64,000 bases of DNA from a bacterium (GTDB lineage: Bacteria; Fibrobacterota; Chitinivibrionia; Chitinivibrionales; Chitinivibrionaceae), in NCBI GenBank assembly GCA_020048285.1, contig JAIFMU010000009.1:1-64000 (forward strand). The letters run 5' to 3'. The notes under the pieces were generated by a model, which searched no databases, was not told the origin of the DNA, and saw nothing but the letters and a program-made list of their open reading frames with translations. Below are positions 16,367 through 24,783 of this stretch, piece after piece. Position 1 is the first letter of the stretch, and each line of letters opens with the position of its first letter. Made by a program: the position numbers and the translations under genes.

Positions 16367-17164
16367 TTGAACACTGAAGTGAAACAAAAGGAGTTCTGCC
16401 GACTCACCGGTTTAACGCGTAAGTCATTACTGATTTACGAAGAAAAAGGATTGTTAGTTCCATGCAGAATTGATAGTTCAACGGGATATCGTTTCTACTC
16501 AAGCTTGGAAATTGATCGGGGAACAAAAATAAGCATTTTGCGTGCACTGGATTTTGCCGTTCCGGAAATTGCAGCGGTTCTCGAACAAGGAGACAATGCT
16601 TTGTCTGTGTTAGAACAGAAAGAAGTAGAGTTGACTCGCAAAATGGCGGTAGTCGAAAATGGCTTGAGGTTTTTGGAAGTGAATAGAGGCGTAACCCCTT
16701 TTGTTGAAGATGTTCGTGAAACAAAGTTGTCGCTATTTCAGGTCGCCACAATGGAAGGACGAGGTTCAGTTCGCGATATTGCTGTTCATTTGAAATTGCT
16801 AAGTCGATATATTCGCAACTACGGAGCGCTTGAATGTGGTCCCACGGGAACGTTCTTTTACCCTGATAGCACGTTTGACGATTTTCATTTTAAGGTGTTT
16901 GTTCCGGTCAATGGTGAATGGTTGATTCCGACGAATGGATTTGTAATTGAAAATTTTGGAATGCCTCGATTCCTCTATCTTCGCCACTACGGATCCTATG
17001 AACTTCTTGCGCCACTCTACGAACGGTTGCGTATAGCCGTGGAAGAACGGGGTGAAACCCTTGATGGAAGTTATATAGAACTCTATAGAAATCCACCGCA
17101 CCAACTTCTCGGATCGGACACTTCCTTGCTTATAACCGATATTGGAGTTCCTTTATGGTATTGA
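16367..17164 (+). CDS. MerR-family regulator with GyrI-like effector domain
   Basis: 265 residues. The N-terminus is a MerR winged helix (KEFCRLTGLTRKSLLIYEEKGLL, then the R-Y-Y-like STGYRFYSS). A dimerisation coiled coil lies at about 75-105. The C-terminal 150 residues form a GyrI-like/BmrR-type ligand domain (LRHYGSYELLAPLYERL). Such proteins activate transport or stress genes on binding a small hydrophobic molecule. The start is TTG at 16367, with AAGGAGAGG upstream. The gene overlaps the next gene by 10 bases, so it probably controls its own operon, including the urea-transporter fusion. Confidence 0.85.
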   Translation: MNTEVKQKEFCRLTGLTRKSLLIYEEKGLLVPCRIDSSTGYRFYSSLEIDRGTKISILRALDFAVPEIAAVLEQGDNALSVLEQKEVELTRKMAVVENGLRFLEVNRGVTPFVEDVRETKLSLFQVATMEGRGSVRDIAVHLKLLSRYIRNYGALECGPTGTFFYPDSTFDDFHFKVFVPVNGEWLIPTNGFVIENFGMPRFLYLRHYGSYELLAPLYERLRIAVEERGETLDGSYIELYRNPPHQLLGSDTSLLITDIGVPLWY

Positions 17165-19239
17165 AAAAACAGTTCTCATATCTTCTTGAAAGCTATAGCT
17201 ACCTTCTGTTTTCCACCAATAAACTGTTGGGTGGAATTCTACTCGTGCTCTCTTTCGTGAACCCTTCAGCGGGGATCCATGCGCTTGTTGCTTTTTTCGC
17301 CGCATCAGCCTTTTCTAAAGTGTGCAATACGAATAACGCCCTAGATACACATACGCGCTATCTTTACAATTCTTTGATGACAGGGCTTGCAATTGGTTTT
17401 GTGTATGCTGTTTCTCCACTTTCTCTTCTAATGAGTGTGGTGGTGGGGATTCTGACATTTTTATTTAGTTCATCCTTACATGCACTTTTTTCTTATTACT
17501 TAGGTTTACCGATTCTCAATCTTCCCTTTGCAATTATCGCTACGCTGGTCTATTTGGCTGCAATGCAATACAGTTCGTTGTCGCATATTCATAACTCATT
17601 TGAAATGAGTATTTTGAATATTGATGCTTTGCCGGTAGCGATCCAGGGGTTATTGCGGTCGATAGGGGTACTGCTCTTTTTGCCCTACGATTGGATTGGA
17701 CTCATCATTTTGAGTATCGTCCTCGTTTTGTCGAGAATCAATTTCTTTCTCATTGTGATGGGATACTTTGCGGGAACATTTTTTCATTCGCTCTTAACGG
17801 GGATACCGCATTCTAGTGTCTCTAATCCTTTTAGTTTCAACTATATACTTATTGCTCTTTCGCTGGGAGGGTATTTTCTTATTCCATCGAAACGAACGTA
17901 CGGAATCGCGCTTATCGGGGTCTGTGTCAGTTCAATTTTACTTGATGGTATGACTGTTTTTTGGTCGACTTTCGGGATTCCTGCGTTTACTCTCCCTTTT
18001 GCCATTACTGTTCTTCTTTTTATACATGCGCTGTATATCGCAAAATACCCTTTCGTAACGCGACAATTTCGCAATTCGCCAGAACAAAATCTCGAAGAGT
18101 GGTGCACCAATGCGGAACGGTTCGGCGTCACTCTTCCGTCGCCTCGTTTACCCTTTAGCGGTGAATGGACGGTCTATCAAGGTTTTGATGATGATTGGAC
18201 ACATCAAGGTCTGTGGCGGTATGCGGTTGATTTTGTTATTGAAGATCCCGTGAATGGGACAACATTCCGCCATAGTGGAAAGCGGCTCGAAGATTTTTAC
18301 TGTTATAATAAACCAGTTCTCGCACCGGTAAGTGGAACCGTGGTTGCTCTTGTCTCGACGATTCCTGATAATCCGATCGGTTCGGTAAACAAGGAAGAAA
18401 ATTGGGGGAATTATATAATCCTCTATTCTGACTTTGGGTACTACGTTGAATTGTCACACTTTGCGAATGGATCGCTCGCAGTGAATATCGGTGATCGGGT
18501 TGTGGTGGGACAGGTAATCGGACGGTGTGGAAATTCCGGCCACTCCGCTCAGCCGCATATCCACATGCAGGTTCAGTATTGGGCTTATGCCGGAGCGCCG
18601 GCGGTACAATTTTCCTTTTCGCAAGCGGAATCAAATGGCGCAGTTATTCGCGGCGAAACACATCCACGAAAGGGTGATCGGTTCTCTTCGCTGGTAGTTT
18701 CAAAGAAAATGGGGGCGATGTTTCAATTTCTTTTGGATGATACTATTCGTTTTCGATACCACAAAAATGGTGTCGATGCAGGGCTTTTGGAACTGAAAGT
18801 GCGCATGGATGTCGATGGATCGTACTGCCTTGAAGATGTGGTTCGAAAGAGCAAACTCTACTTTATTCAACGTGAATCGGAGTTTCTTTTTACTTCCTAT
18901 ATCGGAACTGAAAATTCGCCTTTGAGGTTTCTGTTTACCGCTGTTCCGTCGATTCCCATGACAGAACAACCGGTTACATGGAAAGACTCACTTCCGGCAT
19001 CGGTAGTGCAAAGCCGGTTGCCGCTCTTTGCCTATCTTTTGAAATCATTTTATCATCCGCTCTACAGTGGAAAAGGATCATACAAGAGTGAAAATGGTGT
19101 AGTTCGTGGATCAGTCGTGCTGAATCATCTCTTCTCTACGGATCATTTTGAAAGTGAATTAACCCTTGATTCACATGCACGGTTTTCGCGAGTTAAAATG
19201 AAAATGAAAGGTGAGATACATGTGCTTGAAGCGCTGTAG
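17155..19239 (+). CDS. Urea-transporter / M23 peptidase fusion protein
   Basis: 694 residues in the inner membrane. Residues 1-310 have about ten membrane segments in the layout of the urea transporter family, including the conserved LGLPILNLPFAI and FGIPAFTLPF signatures, one from each half of the channel. Residues about 330-500 are an M23-type (LytM) domain: HSGKRLEDFYCYNKPVLAPV, NYIILYSDFGYYVELSH, and HSAQPHIHMQVQ with the HxH zinc motif. A beta-rich domain follows. In M23 enzymes these histidines bind zinc for peptidoglycan cross-link cleavage. The expected first zinc motif (HxGxD-like) is altered to YAVDF, so catalysis is uncertain. It starts inside the end of the regulator gene and its own end overlaps the next gene by 20 bases, so the genes are co-translated. 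Confidence 0.88.
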   Translation: MVLKKQFSYLLESYSYLLFSTNKLLGGILLVLSFVNPSAGIHALVAFFAASAFSKVCNTNNALDTHTRYLYNSLMTGLAIGFVYAVSPLSLLMSVVVGILTFLFSSSLHALFSYYLGLPILNLPFAIIATLVYLAAMQYSSLSHIHNSFEMSILNIDALPVAIQGLLRSIGVLLFLPYDWIGLIILSIVLVLSRINFFLIVMGYFAGTFFHSLLTGIPHSSVSNPFSFNYILIALSLGGYFLIPSKRTYGIALIGVCVSSILLDGMTVFWSTFGIPAFTLPFAITVLLFIHALYIAKYPFVTRQFRNSPEQNLEEWCTNAERFGVTLPSPRLPFSGEWTVYQGFDDDWTHQGLWRYAVDFVIEDPVNGTTFRHSGKRLEDFYCYNKPVLAPVSGTVVALVSTIPDNPIGSVNKEENWGNYIILYSDFGYYVELSHFANGSLAVNIGDRVVVGQVIGRCGNSGHSAQPHIHMQVQYWAYAGAPAVQFSFSQAESNGAVIRGETHPRKGDRFSSLVVSKKMGAMFQFLLDDTIRFRYHKNGVDAGLLELKVRMDVDGSYCLEDVVRKSKLYFIQRESEFLFTSYIGTENSPLRFLFTAVPSIPMTEQPVTWKDSLPASVVQSRLPLFAYLLKSFYHPLYSGKGSYKSENGVVRGSVVLNHLFSTDHFESELTLDSHARFSRVKMKMKGEIHVLEAL

Positions 19240-20779
19240 TATGTTGTTGTATGTGGTTTTTTTGTCTTCTGTTGCGTGGGCTGGTAGTCTTGAAAGTGCT
19301 TATGAAACGTACTTGGAAGGTTCATTTGAAAAAAGTTACCAACAATATGCAGATAACTATGAATCCACGGGGAATAGAGATGCCTTGTACGGGATGATTA
19401 ACTCCTTGGTTATGCTGAAACGGTATGATGAAGCTTTACTGCTTTGTCACACCGATGAACACGATGCAATATTGTTGGCTAAAGAGGTGTGGATACTTGG
19501 ATTAGGAAAAAACCGGGCCGTCGCTACAACACGAATGACTACAATTGAAACGGTAGTTCCTCAGGAATCGCGTCCCATGATTTTTCGCAGTGGCGGTGAC
19601 GGATTTTACGGTTCCGGTGAGTTCAAAGAGGCGATTCGCTGGTATGAGAAGGCACAAAAAATAGCCTTTGACTCTGCCACTCAGCGAGCGATCACTGCGG
19701 CGACTATCGAGAAAAAAACGGCAGTACTGCAAACCGTATCGGCTATGGGGGGGCCGATAATCTATTCAAAAGGTGAAATTAACGATCAAAAAAATCAATA
19801 TCGCTACGATCACGGATCATTTCTGTCCGCGGGAACACGTTTGAATGTTAAGAAAAGGTTCGCTGTTGAACTGGAGTACTGCCGGTTCGATGCATCCTTT
19901 GGGGAAAACGTGTATGGTGTCTCCTATGAATCACAACTTTATAAAAGTCGTGACAGTTCTGCAAATATGCCGTGGCCGATGCTCTACACTGTGCAAGATT
20001 CTGTTGATCATTGGGTCAATGAAAATCCTGAAACGCATAAATACTCAATTGTAGACTCGCTTAAAACCTACAAAAAGTTTAATGGAGTAGATACGACGTT
20101 CACCGATTCTATATGGACACTCTATTCCGAATCGTACATATCTGATTCGGATACAGCAAGCTACGATGACACTGTTTCCTTCGTACCGACATCGATTTTT
20201 CAAAATGGCATCTACGCGGGATTTTCGGTGTTCAATGCGTTCGGACGGCGATTGACCATGGTCACATCGGCGAATTTGTGGCAATCGAACATGGCCAACA
20301 TGAACCGAGGAGCATCTTTGGGAGCCTATGGAGGATTTAATGGGAACTATCTTACTATAGGATCGTACTTGTACGGGACTTTCACTGAAAAAGTGGGTAC
20401 AATTCAAGTGAGTCCTGATATTGGTGGCACCGTAAAACTCTTTTCGTGGAACGTTACCCCTTCCTCTGTGTTCAAAACGGGTGCTCCCGTGGCGATGAAA
20501 ATTCCCGGTGTGCAACTCTCGGCGGAAGTGGAACTGGGAGTAACGGGGAAACACGGTGCCGTCAGCGTTTCGGGTGTCGTGGGAAAACGAGCATTTACCG
20601 CAGAAAGTTCCGGCAAGAATGTGGTGACCATAACTCTGCCGCATCGGTTTTCGGGATCGTTCTATGGAGCGGTCATGCCGGGATCTGGTCGACTTTCTCT
20701 CTTTACCTTGTGGCGTTACGAAAATTATGAACAACTTTCCCGCCTGATCGCTCTTGGCGGAACAACGTTTAGCTTTTAG
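19220..20779 (+). CDS. TPR-containing exported protein with probable outer-membrane barrel
   Basis: 519 residues. A signal peptide ends at about VAWAG. Residues about 25-180 hold degenerate TPR helices (YETYLEGSFEKSYQQYADNYE, FYGSGEFKEAIRWYEKAQKIA). The rest is rich in alternating aromatic strands and ends in GGTTFSF with a terminal phenylalanine, typical of an outer-membrane barrel. ATG at 19220 is preceded by AAAGGTGAG; a GTG three codons upstream lacks spacing. Known outer-membrane family not recognised. It sits in the operon 16367-21421, suggesting an envelope role beside the M23 fusion. Confidence 0.72.
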   Translation: MCLKRCSMLLYVVFLSSVAWAGSLESAYETYLEGSFEKSYQQYADNYESTGNRDALYGMINSLVMLKRYDEALLLCHTDEHDAILLAKEVWILGLGKNRAVATTRMTTIETVVPQESRPMIFRSGGDGFYGSGEFKEAIRWYEKAQKIAFDSATQRAITAATIEKKTAVLQTVSAMGGPIIYSKGEINDQKNQYRYDHGSFLSAGTRLNVKKRFAVELEYCRFDASFGENVYGVSYESQLYKSRDSSANMPWPMLYTVQDSVDHWVNENPETHKYSIVDSLKTYKKFNGVDTTFTDSIWTLYSESYISDSDTASYDDTVSFVPTSIFQNGIYAGFSVFNAFGRRLTMVTSANLWQSNMANMNRGASLGAYGGFNGNYLTIGSYLYGTFTEKVGTIQVSPDIGGTVKLFSWNVTPSSVFKTGAPVAMKIPGVQLSAEVELGVTGKHGAVSVSGVVGKRAFTAESSGKNVVTITLPHRFSGSFYGAVMPGSGRLSLFTLWRYENYEQLSRLIALGGTTFSF

Positions 20780-20788
20780 GAGTGTCCT

Positions 20789-21421
20789 ATGAAATTGAAA
20801 CAGGTGATTTTACTATTGAGTATGATTGGTGTTGTTAGTATTGCTGCTGAACCGTCGGCGGCAGAAATCAGAAAAGCCTACTTTAGTTCCTATGAACTTG
20901 AAAAACAACAGCGATACGCCGATGCATCCCACGCGTTAGACCCTGTTGCTTCGGCATACCCTCAGAGTTACACGGTAAACTATCGACGTGGGTGGCTTGC
21001 CTATTTAGCGGGGAATTTTACCGATGCGAAAAAGTTCTACGGTGTGGCTTTGACCCAATATCCGGCATCGCTGGAGGTGCGCAAGGGATTGGTGTTAGTC
21101 GATGCGGCTCGAAGATCGTGGAAAGAGGTGGAACAGCAGTGTCGCATTGGAAGAAAAACCGATTACTACAACCTCGACTTTTGTTACTGGCAGGCGGTGG
21201 CACTTCGCGTACTTGGTCAGGCCGATGCGGCTTCGAAAGTGGTGGAAGAGATTACCGTTCGCTATCCGACGAACGTGAATTTTCTGACAGAACTGGCGCG
21301 GATTCGATTGGCTCAAGGGAAAAAAGATCAGGTATTAGCACTTCTTGAATCGGTATACATACTCGATCCGCTCAATCAGGAAGCGGTAGCGATTCAAAAG
21401 CAGATGACTGCAACAAAATAA
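20789..21421 (+). CDS. Periplasmic TPR protein
   Basis: 210 residues with a signal peptide (MKLKQVILLLSMIGVVSIAA). Four to five TPR motifs fill the rest (YELEKQQRYADASHALDPVA, NYRRGWLAYLAGNFTDAKKFY, CYWQAVALRVLGQADAASKVV). TPR proteins are scaffolds for other proteins. It starts 9 bases after the barrel gene, with TTAGGAG at the ribosome site, and is the last gene of the operon headed by the MerR regulator. It is probably a partner of the barrel protein. Confidence 0.8.
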   Translation: MKLKQVILLLSMIGVVSIAAEPSAAEIRKAYFSSYELEKQQRYADASHALDPVASAYPQSYTVNYRRGWLAYLAGNFTDAKKFYGVALTQYPASLEVRKGLVLVDAARRSWKEVEQQCRIGRKTDYYNLDFCYWQAVALRVLGQADAASKVVEEITVRYPTNVNFLTELARIRLAQGKKDQVLALLESVYILDPLNQEAVAIQKQMTATK

Positions 21422-21533: not shown

Positions 21534-21776
21534 ATGGAACTGAAAAAACTGCAGAATCTGGCGATCGCCGACAGTGGATACATTTTCGATCCCGCTTCGG
21601 GAAACAGCTATACTGCCAATGAAACGGCGCTGTTTATTATGGCTGACCTAAAAGCGGGGAAATCGACCGAAGAGATCATTGGGCATCTCTGCGAAGAGTA
21701 CGAAACTGATTCTGCCACTGCCGAAAGCGATACGATCAGAACGATCGAGCAGCTTCAGGCGAACTACCTTATTTAA
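21534..21776 (+). CDS. PqqD-like (RiPP recognition element) protein
   Basis: 80 residues, starting MELKKLQNLAIADSGYIFDP. It has the PqqD-fold pattern: two short strands (SGYIFDPASGNSYTANETA), a helix TALFIMADLKAG, then KSTEEIIGHLCEEYE and a last helix ending LQANYLI. This is the small winged-helix recognition element that binds RiPP leader peptides or partner enzymes. The ATG at 21534 is favoured because AAGGATG precedes it and earlier residues do not fit the family. An ATP-grasp gene and a PLP decarboxylase gene follow on the same strand, an association typical of peptide-tailoring clusters. Confidence 0.8.
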   Translation: MELKKLQNLAIADSGYIFDPASGNSYTANETALFIMADLKAGKSTEEIIGHLCEEYETDSATAESDTIRTIEQLQANYLI

Positions 21777-21874: not shown

Positions 21875-22948
21875 ATGATAACAGTTGCAATGAGCGGAAT
21901 CAACGCGATTGACAATCCCGGGCCGGGAACCGGAATCGCGCGGTCGCTGAAAGAGAGCGATCTAGAGATCCGCACAATCGGGCTCGCCTATGACTCAATG
22001 GAGCCGGGAATCTTTATGGACTGGGTGATCGACAAGAGCTACATCCTTCCGTGGCCGTCGTGCGATCCGAAAGTGTATCTCGAACGGCTGTCGTATATCC
22101 ATGACCGTGAACAGATCGATGTGATTATTCCGGCGCTCGACGCGGAACTTCCGCTCTATATGAAACTTCGCCCGGAAATCGAAGCAATGGGGATCAAACT
22201 GCTGCTTCCGGATATCAAAACCTATATGCGCCGCGACAAGCAGAATCTGGTTCAGTTGGCGCCGGAACTGGGACTGTTGGTTCCGGAAACGCTGGTCATG
22301 AGTTCTCCGGCGGATATTGTCACCGCGGAATCGATGTTCGGCTATCCCATGATGATCAAAGGGCCGTTCTACGAAGCGTTCAAGGTGAGAACCCGTGCTG
22401 AAGCGGAAAAAGAGTTCTACAACATGGCGGCCAAGTGGGGATATCCGATTATTGCTCAACAGTTTATTGTCGGCGATGAGTACGATATGATCGGTCTGGC
22501 GGATGGTCACGGGATGGATATGGGAACCATGGCGATCAAAAAGATCATGACTACCAAACTGGGTAAAGTGTGGACAAATGTGGCGGTTCGCAACGATGCA
22601 ATTTTCGAAGCGGCGCGCAAGTTCGTCACGGGACTCAAGTGGGCAGGTGGTTATGAGTTGGAACTCCTTCAGAAAGCGGGTACCGACGAGTTCTATCTGA
22701 TCGAAATCAATCCGCGGTTTCCCGCGTGGCTCTATATGGCGGCAGGATGTGGGATCAATCTTCCGGAACGAATGGTGAAACATCTTCTGAATATGCCCTA
22801 TGAAACTCATTCGGACTACGAAGCGGGCAAGATGCTGATTCGCTACACCGGTGAAATGATTCGGCATATCAGCGATTTCGAACAGCTGACAACTCTGGGC
22901 GAGAGTCGGGAAAAGACAGATAAAACGAAAAATCGACAAAACGATTAA
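21875..22948 (+). CDS. ATP-grasp ligase of the PqqD/decarboxylase cluster
   Basis: 357 residues, soluble. The layout is of carbamoyl-phosphate-synthase-like ATP-grasp enzymes: an N-terminal Rossmann part (ITVAMSGINAI, DVIIPALDAELPLY), the ATP-binding lysine region YPMMIKGPFYEAFKV, and metal-binding ELELLQ and FYLIEINPRFPAW (E-x-N-x-R). Such enzymes join a carboxylate to an amine or thiol through an acyl-phosphate. AAAGGAATAAAC precedes the ATG. Its substrate is not readable; with a PqqD-like protein before and a PLP decarboxylase after, peptide or amino-acid tailoring is the likely role. The last 20 residues are charged and run into the tandem array. Confidence 0.85.
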   Translation: MITVAMSGINAIDNPGPGTGIARSLKESDLEIRTIGLAYDSMEPGIFMDWVIDKSYILPWPSCDPKVYLERLSYIHDREQIDVIIPALDAELPLYMKLRPEIEAMGIKLLLPDIKTYMRRDKQNLVQLAPELGLLVPETLVMSSPADIVTAESMFGYPMMIKGPFYEAFKVRTRAEAEKEFYNMAAKWGYPIIAQQFIVGDEYDMIGLADGHGMDMGTMAIKKIMTTKLGKVWTNVAVRNDAIFEAARKFVTGLKWAGGYELELLQKAGTDEFYLIEINPRFPAWLYMAAGCGINLPERMVKHLLNMPYETHSDYEAGKMLIRYTGEMIRHISDFEQLTTLGESREKTDKTKNRQND

Positions 22949-22983
22949 ACGGAATGCAGGCGCGGGTTGCATTATTTCAACCT

Positions 22984-23301
22984 GTGAAGAATGATGAGTA
23001 TCCAGCCGTCAAGTATGACCGCGGAATCGTGAAGAATGACGGGAGATTGTTAAGAATAGGTGTAAAAGCGTGAAGAATGGCCGCGTAATCGTGAAGAATG
23101 AGTGCAAAACCGTCAAGAATGAGCATGAAAATCAGCAGATTACGATTGATCTTCCCTTGTCTTGAGGTACGGATTTGAACATGAGTATTCGGATAATGAA
23201 CATTTATGCATAACTATTGAACATGACCATGAATCGTCGAACAGGAATGTGAAACCGATGAGCATGACCATGAAACCGTTGAACATGACCATGAACGACA
23301 G
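22984..23301. repeat. Degenerate tandem array with 21-bp period inside the PqqD cluster
   Basis: Two sub-arrays keep one phase. The first has units starting GTGAAGAATG or close to it at 22984, 23008, 23029, 23049, 23070, 23091 and 23112. The second has units starting GAACATGACC or close to it at 23177, 23198, 23219, 23239, 23260 and 23281. Steps are 21 bases, with rare 20 or 24, and the gap between the sub-arrays is about three periods. Because 20- and 24-base steps break any reading frame, open frames across it do not look coding. It fills most of 22949-23433, which holds no other gene. Confidence 0.85.
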
Positions 23302-23433
23302 GGTCTTACGTTGGATCCGTGGTAAAAGAAGATTCGTAACGGGTACTTTTGGGAATAATTTTTGAATTCAGCCCCAAAGCGGGCGACAGTATACCAACAC
23401 AGGTCGAAGGCCTGTGAACAATAAGGAGAAAAT

Positions 23434-24783
23434 ATGAAAAAAAGATATATCCGCCCCACAATCGTGAAACAAGTGGTGGGAGTGATGAACAAGTTCGGCA
23501 ATGTATCCATGAGAAATATCAAGGAGGATATCGACGGCGCTGCGATCACCGACATGGTGGAACAGTACGGTTCACCGCTCTTTGTGTTCAGTGAAAAACA
23601 GTTGCGCAATCAGTATCGCCGAGCGTACCAGGCGTTTTCGACCCGCTACCCGAACGTGCAGTTTTCATGGTCGTACAAGACCAACTATCTTGGCGCGATC
23701 TGTTCGGTGTTTCACCAAGAAGGGGAAATTGCCGAGGTTGTTTCGGGGTTTGAATACCAGAAAGCGCGTCAACTCGGCATGCGCGGTGATCAGATTATTT
23801 TCAACGGCCCGTGGAAAAATGATGATGAACTGAAACTCGCGTTCGAAGAGAATGCCATTGTCAATCTTGATAATTTCAACGAACTGCACCGCGCCGAAAA
23901 GATCGCCAAAGCGCTCGGGAAGAAAGTGGGTGTGGGAATTCGACTCAATATGGACACAGGAACCTACCCGCGATGGTCGAAATTCGGTTTCAATCTGGAG
24001 ACTTCTCAGGCGGCGGATGCGGCGGCACGGATTGCTCGTTCGGAATGGCTCGAACTGAAAGGGATCCACTCCCACATCGGAACATTTATGCTCGATCCCA
24101 ATGCCTATGTACTTCAGGTGCAAAAAATGGTGAATTTCATGCTTCACATGGAAAATGAACACGAAATCGAACTGGAGTATATCGATATCGGAGGCGGATT
24201 CCCGTCCAAAAGCCGACTCAAGGGGATCTACCTTCCGCCGGAAGTGTCGGTTCCGGAGATCGATGCCTATGCCGAAGCGATCTGCAATACGCTGACAGCG
24301 GTTCTTCCCGCAGGACGCACCCCAAAACTCTACCTCGAAACGGGACGCCACATGGTTGACGAAGCCGGTTCGCTGGTCAGTTCGGTGATCGGTCAGAAAC
24401 AGCTTCCCGACGGAAATTCGGGCTACTTCCTGGATGCGGGAGTGAACATGCTCTACACCGGATCGTGGTATAATTTCAACATTGCTCCGGCAGTGGACAC
24501 CGGCGGTGTCCCCGAAGCGTGTACCCTGTTCGGCCCGCTCTGCATGAACATTGATGTGGTGGCTGATTCGGCCTATCTTCCGCCGCTACCGATGAACACT
24601 CCACTGGTCATGTGGCCGGTGGGCGCGTACAATGTGACTCAGTGGATGCAGTTTATCACCTATCGCCCGGCTGTCGTGATGGTCATGGAGGATGGTTCCA
24701 CGGAACTGATTCGGCGCAAAGAGGTTCTGGAAGATGTCACCGGCCCAGAAATCGTTCCGGAAAAGGTTCGGGTGAAAAAATAG
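23434..24783 (+). CDS. PLP-dependent decarboxylase (DapDC/LysA fold) with leader-like N-terminus
   Basis: 449 residues. From about residue 30 it is a fold-type-III decarboxylase: the PLP lysine K82 in SWSYKTNYLG, the barrel motif GIHSHIGTFM, GGGFP, ETGRHMVDEAG, and FGPLCMNID aligning with the cysteine region of diaminopimelate decarboxylase. Enzymes of this fold decarboxylate or racemise amino acids. Residues 1-22 are extra and begin MKKRYIRPTIVKQVVG. They carry Y-x-x-P-x-I, the spacing seen in leaders recognised by PqqD-like domains. Translation from 23434 is supported by AAGGAGAAAAT, so the extra part is made. Whether it is docked to the PqqD-like protein, cut off, or a relic is open. Confidence 0.85.
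   Translation: MKKRYIRPTIVKQVVGVMNKFGNVSMRNIKEDIDGAAITDMVEQYGSPLFVFSEKQLRNQYRRAYQAFSTRYPNVQFSWSYKTNYLGAICSVFHQEGEIAEVVSGFEYQKARQLGMRGDQIIFNGPWKNDDELKLAFEENAIVNLDNFNELHRAEKIAKALGKKVGVGIRLNMDTGTYPRWSKFGFNLETSQAADAAARIARSEWLELKGIHSHIGTFMLDPNAYVLQVQKMVNFMLHMENEHEIELEYIDIGGGFPSKSRLKGIYLPPEVSVPEIDAYAEAICNTLTAVLPAGRTPKLYLETGRHMVDEAGSLVSSVIGQKQLPDGNSGYFLDAGVNMLYTGSWYNFNIAPAVDTGGVPEACTLFGPLCMNIDVVADSAYLPPLPMNTPLVMWPVGAYNVTQWMQFITYRPAVVMVMEDGSTELIRRKEVLEDVTGPEIVPEKVRVKK

Follow-up and report, generated by a model that had tools for sequence, protein, structure and literature searches.

Known RREs bind the leader motif [Y/W]xxPx[L/V/I/F/A], with the Tyr going to Asp70; in LppB, whose complex is solved, the leader Tyr forms a bond with Asp70, the Pro is packed against Phe74, and a kink is held by Asn33 (PMC13381572). 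The substrates of the decarboxylases FslC/FigC, SbnH, MccE, and BtrK are conjugated amino acids; MccE decarboxylates a modified peptide–nucleotide and BtrK a glutamylated carrier protein (PMC7857480). Searches for RiPP pathways by way of RREs assume that the leader is carried by a short peptide, but at the locus described here a conserved enzyme bears the only leader that could be detected. This enzyme, a decarboxylase, is encoded in a 64,000-nucleotide stretch of bacterial DNA that we analyzed (hereafter the window), downstream of genes for a PqqD-like protein and an ATP-grasp ligase.

Results

An extra N-terminal segment precedes the decarboxylase fold

The decarboxylase ORF occupies positions 23434–24783 of the forward strand, with its ATG at 23434, and the N-terminus of its product reads MKKRYIRPTIVKQVVGVMNKFGNVSMRNIKED. 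The start of the protein, MKKRYIRPTIVKQVVGVMNKFGN, lies ahead of the enzyme fold. The features of the locus, all on the forward (+) strand, are as follows.

17155–19239 (+): urea-transporter/M23 peptidase fusion (PF03253, 1.8e-46; PF01551, 1.6e-11); homologue in 66/67 loci
19211–20779 (+): exported protein, probably of the outer membrane, cassette partner; signal-like start, only weak TPR matches
20789–21421 (+): exported TPR protein, cassette partner; TPR matches, homologue in 60/67 loci
21534–21776 (+): PqqD-like discrete RRE of 80 aa (PF05402, E = 8e-13, 49 bits against a cut-off of 23.4); sole PqqD match in the genome of the window
21875–22948 (+): ATP-grasp ligase (PF15632, PF02655); nearest solved structure 2pn1
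23423–23428 (+): ribosome binding site AAGGAG, read in the sequence, five bases 5′ of the decarboxylase ATG
23446–23463 (+): putative RRE-recognition motif of the decarboxylase tag, Y5-I-R-P8-T-I10; 110/110 homologues match [YF]xxPx[ILVM], and the strand in the L004 model (see below) corresponds to residues 10–12
23479–23499 (+): second conserved block of the tag, core-like, G16-V-M-N-K20-F-G22; Gly16 in 104/110, Lys20 in 104/110, Lys at 20–22 in 110/110; undocked in the model, pLDDT < 50
23500–23529 (+): mostly variable linker from tag to enzyme, residues 23–32; residues 23–28 of low information content
23530–24783 (+): alanine-racemase-fold PLP decarboxylase body (PF02784, 2.4e-32; PF00278, 7.6e-09); Lys82, Cys370-Met-Asn, and Tyr399 conserved; nearest solved enzyme FslC (7kh2)

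Matches to the enzyme family (Pfam, NCBIfam, and the best alignments to solved enzymes) began at residues 24–60 of the decarboxylase, those to NCBIfam FslC, NCBIfam lysA, and solved FslC (7kh2) at residues 28, 29, and 30, respectively. Since the family match begins this late, the first 22–23 residues are extra, and no domain described in Pfam, NCBIfam, or the solved enzymes covers the first 22. A first-pass annotation of this DNA had placed the first 22 residues ahead of the enzyme fold and a ribosome site, AAGGAG, just before the start codon; the family matches from residue 24 or later and the site five bases upstream agree with both statements.

A hairpin, CACAGG-N7-CCTGTG, lies at 23398–23416, directly 5′ of the ribosome site. 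It falls within the 485-base gap between the ATP-grasp and decarboxylase genes (22949–23433), which contains imperfect 21-base repeats with the 11-mer CGTSAAGAATG; this 11-mer occurs in ten copies in the genome, four of them within the gap. The corresponding gap is almost nil in most other loci.

The N-terminal tag is conserved in homologous decarboxylases

A contig scan with patterns taken from the enzyme body only (ITDMVEQY onward) yielded 80 loci from many phyla. Tag residues played no part in finding these first 80 homologues, and the tag was present on all complete N-termini among them. Weighted conservation, calculated from 83 homologues equivalent to about 40 effective sequences, was 100% for Pro8, 100% for Tyr/Phe5, 95% for Ile/Leu10, 95% for Gly16, and 97% for Lys20, and the commonest ending of the tag was NKFG; residues 23–28, by the same measure, were variable and among the least conserved. 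Judged from the sequences, the tag segment is not due to chance, because Pro8, Tyr/Phe5, Gly16, and Lys20 are conserved against this variable background. The addition of 34 further Bacteroidota loci gave 110 complete sets, in all of which, across several phyla, the decarboxylase carried [YF]xxPx[ILVM] with an invariant Pro8, as well as a Lys at tag position 20–22. The tag thus meets the criterion of a [Y/W]xxPx[L/V/I/F/A]-type motif in 110/110 cases, with Y or F in first place. The motif was absent from 30 LysA proteins of the same phylum and from seven other decarboxylases of the same fold, none of whose loci (0/7) had a PqqD-like gene.

The tagged set occurs in Fibrobacterota, Bacteroidota, Myxococcota, Thermodesulfobacteriota, Campylobacterota, and others. 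Thermodesulfobacteria tags (L013–L018) end in REKKS or RDKKS rather than NKFG, the lysine being kept one or two places further on. In Campylobacterota (Sulfurimonas; L021, L023, and L077), Gly16 is replaced (EFAMASKYG), with YxxPxI and the Lys kept.

The tagged decarboxylase has constant gene partners

Both the PqqD-like and the ATP-grasp genes were found in 70/70 loci for which 1.5 kb of upstream sequence was available. The frequencies listed above for the urea-transporter/M23 fusion (66/67) and the TPR protein (60/67) refer to the loci with 2.5 kb of downstream sequence; the cassette in the window has the same genes, but with the transporter, exported protein, and TPR genes standing in front. 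These genes (17155–21421) travel across phyla with the PqqD/ATP-grasp/decarboxylase set. The M23 metal residues His350, Asp359, His468, and His470 are kept in at least 97% of the fusion proteins. A MerR-type regulator with a GyrI-like domain (16367–17164), a possible regulator of the cassette, adjoins the transporter gene.

A search of 17 whole genomes recovered the tag in 16, a single time in each and never on anything but the decarboxylase, and PqqD was usually single per genome; a further 23-residue match (E = 2.4) was at chance level. In genome G026 (locus L007), the decarboxylase N-terminus has been lost beside a transposase-like remnant and no PqqD was found, one case consistent with joint decay. 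Neither the loci nor the 17 whole genomes contained a free-standing ORF bearing the full motif, and the RiPP-precursor criterion of a separate short leader–core gene was likewise unmet there. A motif search for a standalone precursor gave two matches only, both attributable to chance. The tag, its conservation, its constant gene partnership, and the lack of any other full-motif tag are thus direct observations.

Neither the lasso B2 protease nor the C cyclase was detected by a Pfam scan of the cassette genes of the window, which also took in selected genes of other loci, and PADLOC gave no defence match. Our literature search, which did not reach most subscription journals, found no paper joining PqqD, ATP-grasp, and the decarboxylase or urea transporter, and the cassette is undescribed in the passages searched of graspetide and RRE surveys.

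Tag residue 5 covaries with a predicted contact residue of PqqD

The PqqD-like protein (21534–21776) meets the criteria of the PqqD/RRE family, with a PF05402 match and conserved leader-cleft residues, an Asn where strand 3 ends and Asp, Phe, and Leu on helix 3. Its N29, Y/F56, D66, F70, L74, and L79 are spaced like N33, Y60, D70, F74, M78, and L83 of LppB, a numbering match that rests on the text of PMC13381572 and not on an alignment. Of these cleft positions, N29 is kept in 108/110 homologues, D66 in 85/110, an aromatic residue at 70 in 103/110, and L74 in 104/110; the PqqD encoded in the window has Thr as residue 70.

If the Tyr–Asp contact is real, a tag with Phe should not need the PqqD Asp. 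Among the 110 sets, tag residue 5 and PqqD residue 66 were paired as Tyr–Asp in 85, Tyr–Asn/His in 7, and Phe–Tyr/Ser/His/Ala in 18; Phe–Asp did not occur. PqqD 66 ranked first of 868 columns (PqqD, ATP-grasp, and decarboxylase body) for association with tag residue 5, with a normalised information of 0.46 against 0.24 for the next column (0.46 against 0.29 in the first 76 loci). Since the other columns share the same tree, this ranking serves as a partial control for kinship. By parsimony the Tyr/Phe switch took place about six times, in a poorly resolved Bacteroidota region of the tree, which is too few for an independent-pairs test of the covariation to have any power, even after the 34 loci were added. 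The contact of the tag Tyr with the PqqD Asp therefore remains a prediction, supported by covariation with too few switches for a phylogenetic test.

The tag is predicted to dock on PqqD as an added β strand

For AlphaFold modeling we chose locus L004, where the PqqD, ATP-grasp, and decarboxylase genes share a reading frame, and translated across the stop codons to give a read-through construct of 886 residues. In the model with PqqD, the tag block KSYVKPTLVK had a pLDDT of 78, between linkers at 35 and 41, and formed a strand at residues 448–450. The same construct without PqqD showed values below 50 throughout 347–378 and no strand, suggesting that the tag strand depends on PqqD. The NKFG block was undocked in the L004 model (pLDDT < 50). 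The docking model is a single replicate of a read-through construct, and the strand partner was inferred from the PqqD-free control rather than from coordinates. Foldseek searches with both models returned only decarboxylases among the matches listed and were uninformative on docking. Binding of the tag to the RRE as an added β strand is accordingly a computational prediction, without binding data.

The first-pass annotation had proposed that the decarboxylase may carry its own docking tag and that Y-x-x-P-x-I resembles leaders bound by PqqD-like domains, and it had named the conservation of Tyr and Pro and the folding of the tag with PqqD as checks. Both proposals gained support, by computation only: the motif is found in 110/110 homologues, all with Tyr/Phe5 and Pro8, a confident tag strand appears only with PqqD in the read-through model, and the Tyr–Asp pair covaries.

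The decarboxylase resembles enzymes acting on conjugated amino acids

The decarboxylase meets the criterion of an alanine-racemase-fold PLP decarboxylase, with K82, C370, and Y399 present in at least 97% of the tagged enzymes, as is the Cys-Met-Asn sequence. The nearest solved enzyme, 7kh2, is the N-citrylornithine decarboxylase FslC, which likewise has "CM" at the catalytic Cys, whereas DAP decarboxylase has "CE". Neither identity was reached in the curated models: TIGR01048 (LysA) scored 215.8 bits, below its equivalog cut-off of 297.9, and NF041039 (FslC) 222.1 bits, below its cut-off of 500. Because Met follows the Cys as in FslC and the relatives act on conjugated amino acids, the ATP-grasp ligase likely makes a conjugate that the decarboxylase uses, although this is an inference.

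Discussion

We propose, with a probability of roughly two in three, that the tag is an RRE-recognition sequence by which the decarboxylase docks on PqqD and is thereby tethered to the ATP-grasp ligase for decarboxylation of a conjugate. Its first 13 or so residues would be a sequence of the kind usual in RiPP precursor leaders and would add a β strand to the PqqD-like protein, whose hydrophobic cleft would take up Tyr/Phe5, Pro8, and Ile/Leu10. Through the PqqD-like protein, the decarboxylase would be held to the ATP-grasp ligase, whose gene lies between the other two, and the conjugate that the ligase makes could be decarboxylated without loss. Docking in the cell and the conjugated-amino-acid substrate are inferred, and the docked decarboxylase is only presumably coupled to the ligase, an inference for which there is no evidence of a PqqD/ATP-grasp contact.

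Docking alone does not explain the conservation of NKFG, and the role of this block is what decides between a tether and an enzyme that is its own carrier. In the latter case, PqqD would present the tag, the ATP-grasp ligase would load an amino acid onto the NKFG lysine, and the decarboxylase would act on it, as BtrK does. Known RREs deliver a substrate peptide to a modifying enzyme; every tag has a Lys at 20–22, Gly16 and FG are conserved beyond the docked part, and the model leaves the NKFG part flexible, which would suit a core that is being presented. Precedents exist in BtrK (glutamylated carrier protein) and MccE (modified peptide–nucleotide) (PMC7857480), and the ATP-grasp protein has a weak match to a PylC-like N-terminal domain. 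No modification has been observed, however, the specificity of the ligase is unknown and its family match generic, and NKFG could bind a protein surface instead; we consider this combination of enzyme and carrier unlikely. Its full form, in which the RRE docks a RiPP-type N-terminus, the ligase loads the NKFG Lys, the body decarboxylates, and a peptide tail replaces an acyl carrier protein, is if anything slightly more doubtful. That the decarboxylase is both enzyme and precursor has been neither shown nor excluded.

Enzymes of this fold are dimers, and our models, made without dimers, do not exclude an inter-subunit arm. The tag could then be a structural arm of the decarboxylase, for example a dimer-swapped one, with only a coincidental likeness to leaders. 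This seems very unlikely to us: the tag is disordered in the model without PqqD, PqqD 66 is the strongest covariation partner of tag residue 5 and outranks all decarboxylase-body and ATP-grasp columns, and PqqD is present at 70/70 loci. The leader-like and core-like blocks, in that order, and the M23 peptidase within the cassette would suit a true RiPP precursor that is translated with the enzyme and then cut off as a small product, but no cleavage signal or leader protease was identified, the M23 domain, joined as it is to a membrane protein, is probably located outside the cytoplasm, and one enzyme molecule per peptide would be costly, making this reading highly improbable.

With the tag on the decarboxylase and a matching helper gene next to it in all complete loci that we examined, it seems that a system for peptide recognition has been redeployed to bring enzymes of metabolism together. 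If binding is confirmed, metabolism would also use RRE–leader pairs as a way of tethering proteins, orphan RREs that lack a precursor would in some cases have an explanation, and the genes of an undescribed pathway could be tested one by one.

Compared with FslC/FigC, SbnH, AcsE, MccE, and BtrK, the tagged decarboxylase has the fold and PLP lysine in common and the catalytic Cys-Met of FslC. It differs from FslC and LysA in falling below the curated cut-offs, the examined LysA-type relatives having no tag and solved FslC aligning only from residue 30. The butirosin system, whose ATP-grasp enzyme is BtrJ, offers a further parallel. BtrJ–BtrK–BtrI likewise combines an ATP-grasp enzyme with this type of decarboxylase in conjugated amino acid chemistry (for BtrK and BtrI, PMC7857480). 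The butirosin carrier is an acyl carrier protein, in whose place PqqD and the tag stand here. The PqqD-like protein resembles the discrete RREs PadeB1, TfuB1, and LppB in being an 80-residue PF05402 protein with a recognition motif, a predicted added strand, and the Asn/Asp positions. In lasso and LPP systems, however, the motif sits on a short precursor, whereas here a decarboxylase of about 450 residues carries it, and neither a leader protease nor a lasso cyclase was recognised in the cassette. Leader-fused RiPP synthetases made in the laboratory also carry a leader on the enzyme N-terminus, but there the fusion is engineered and the leader works on the enzyme to which it is attached; the present fusion is natural, and a separate protein apparently reads the leader.
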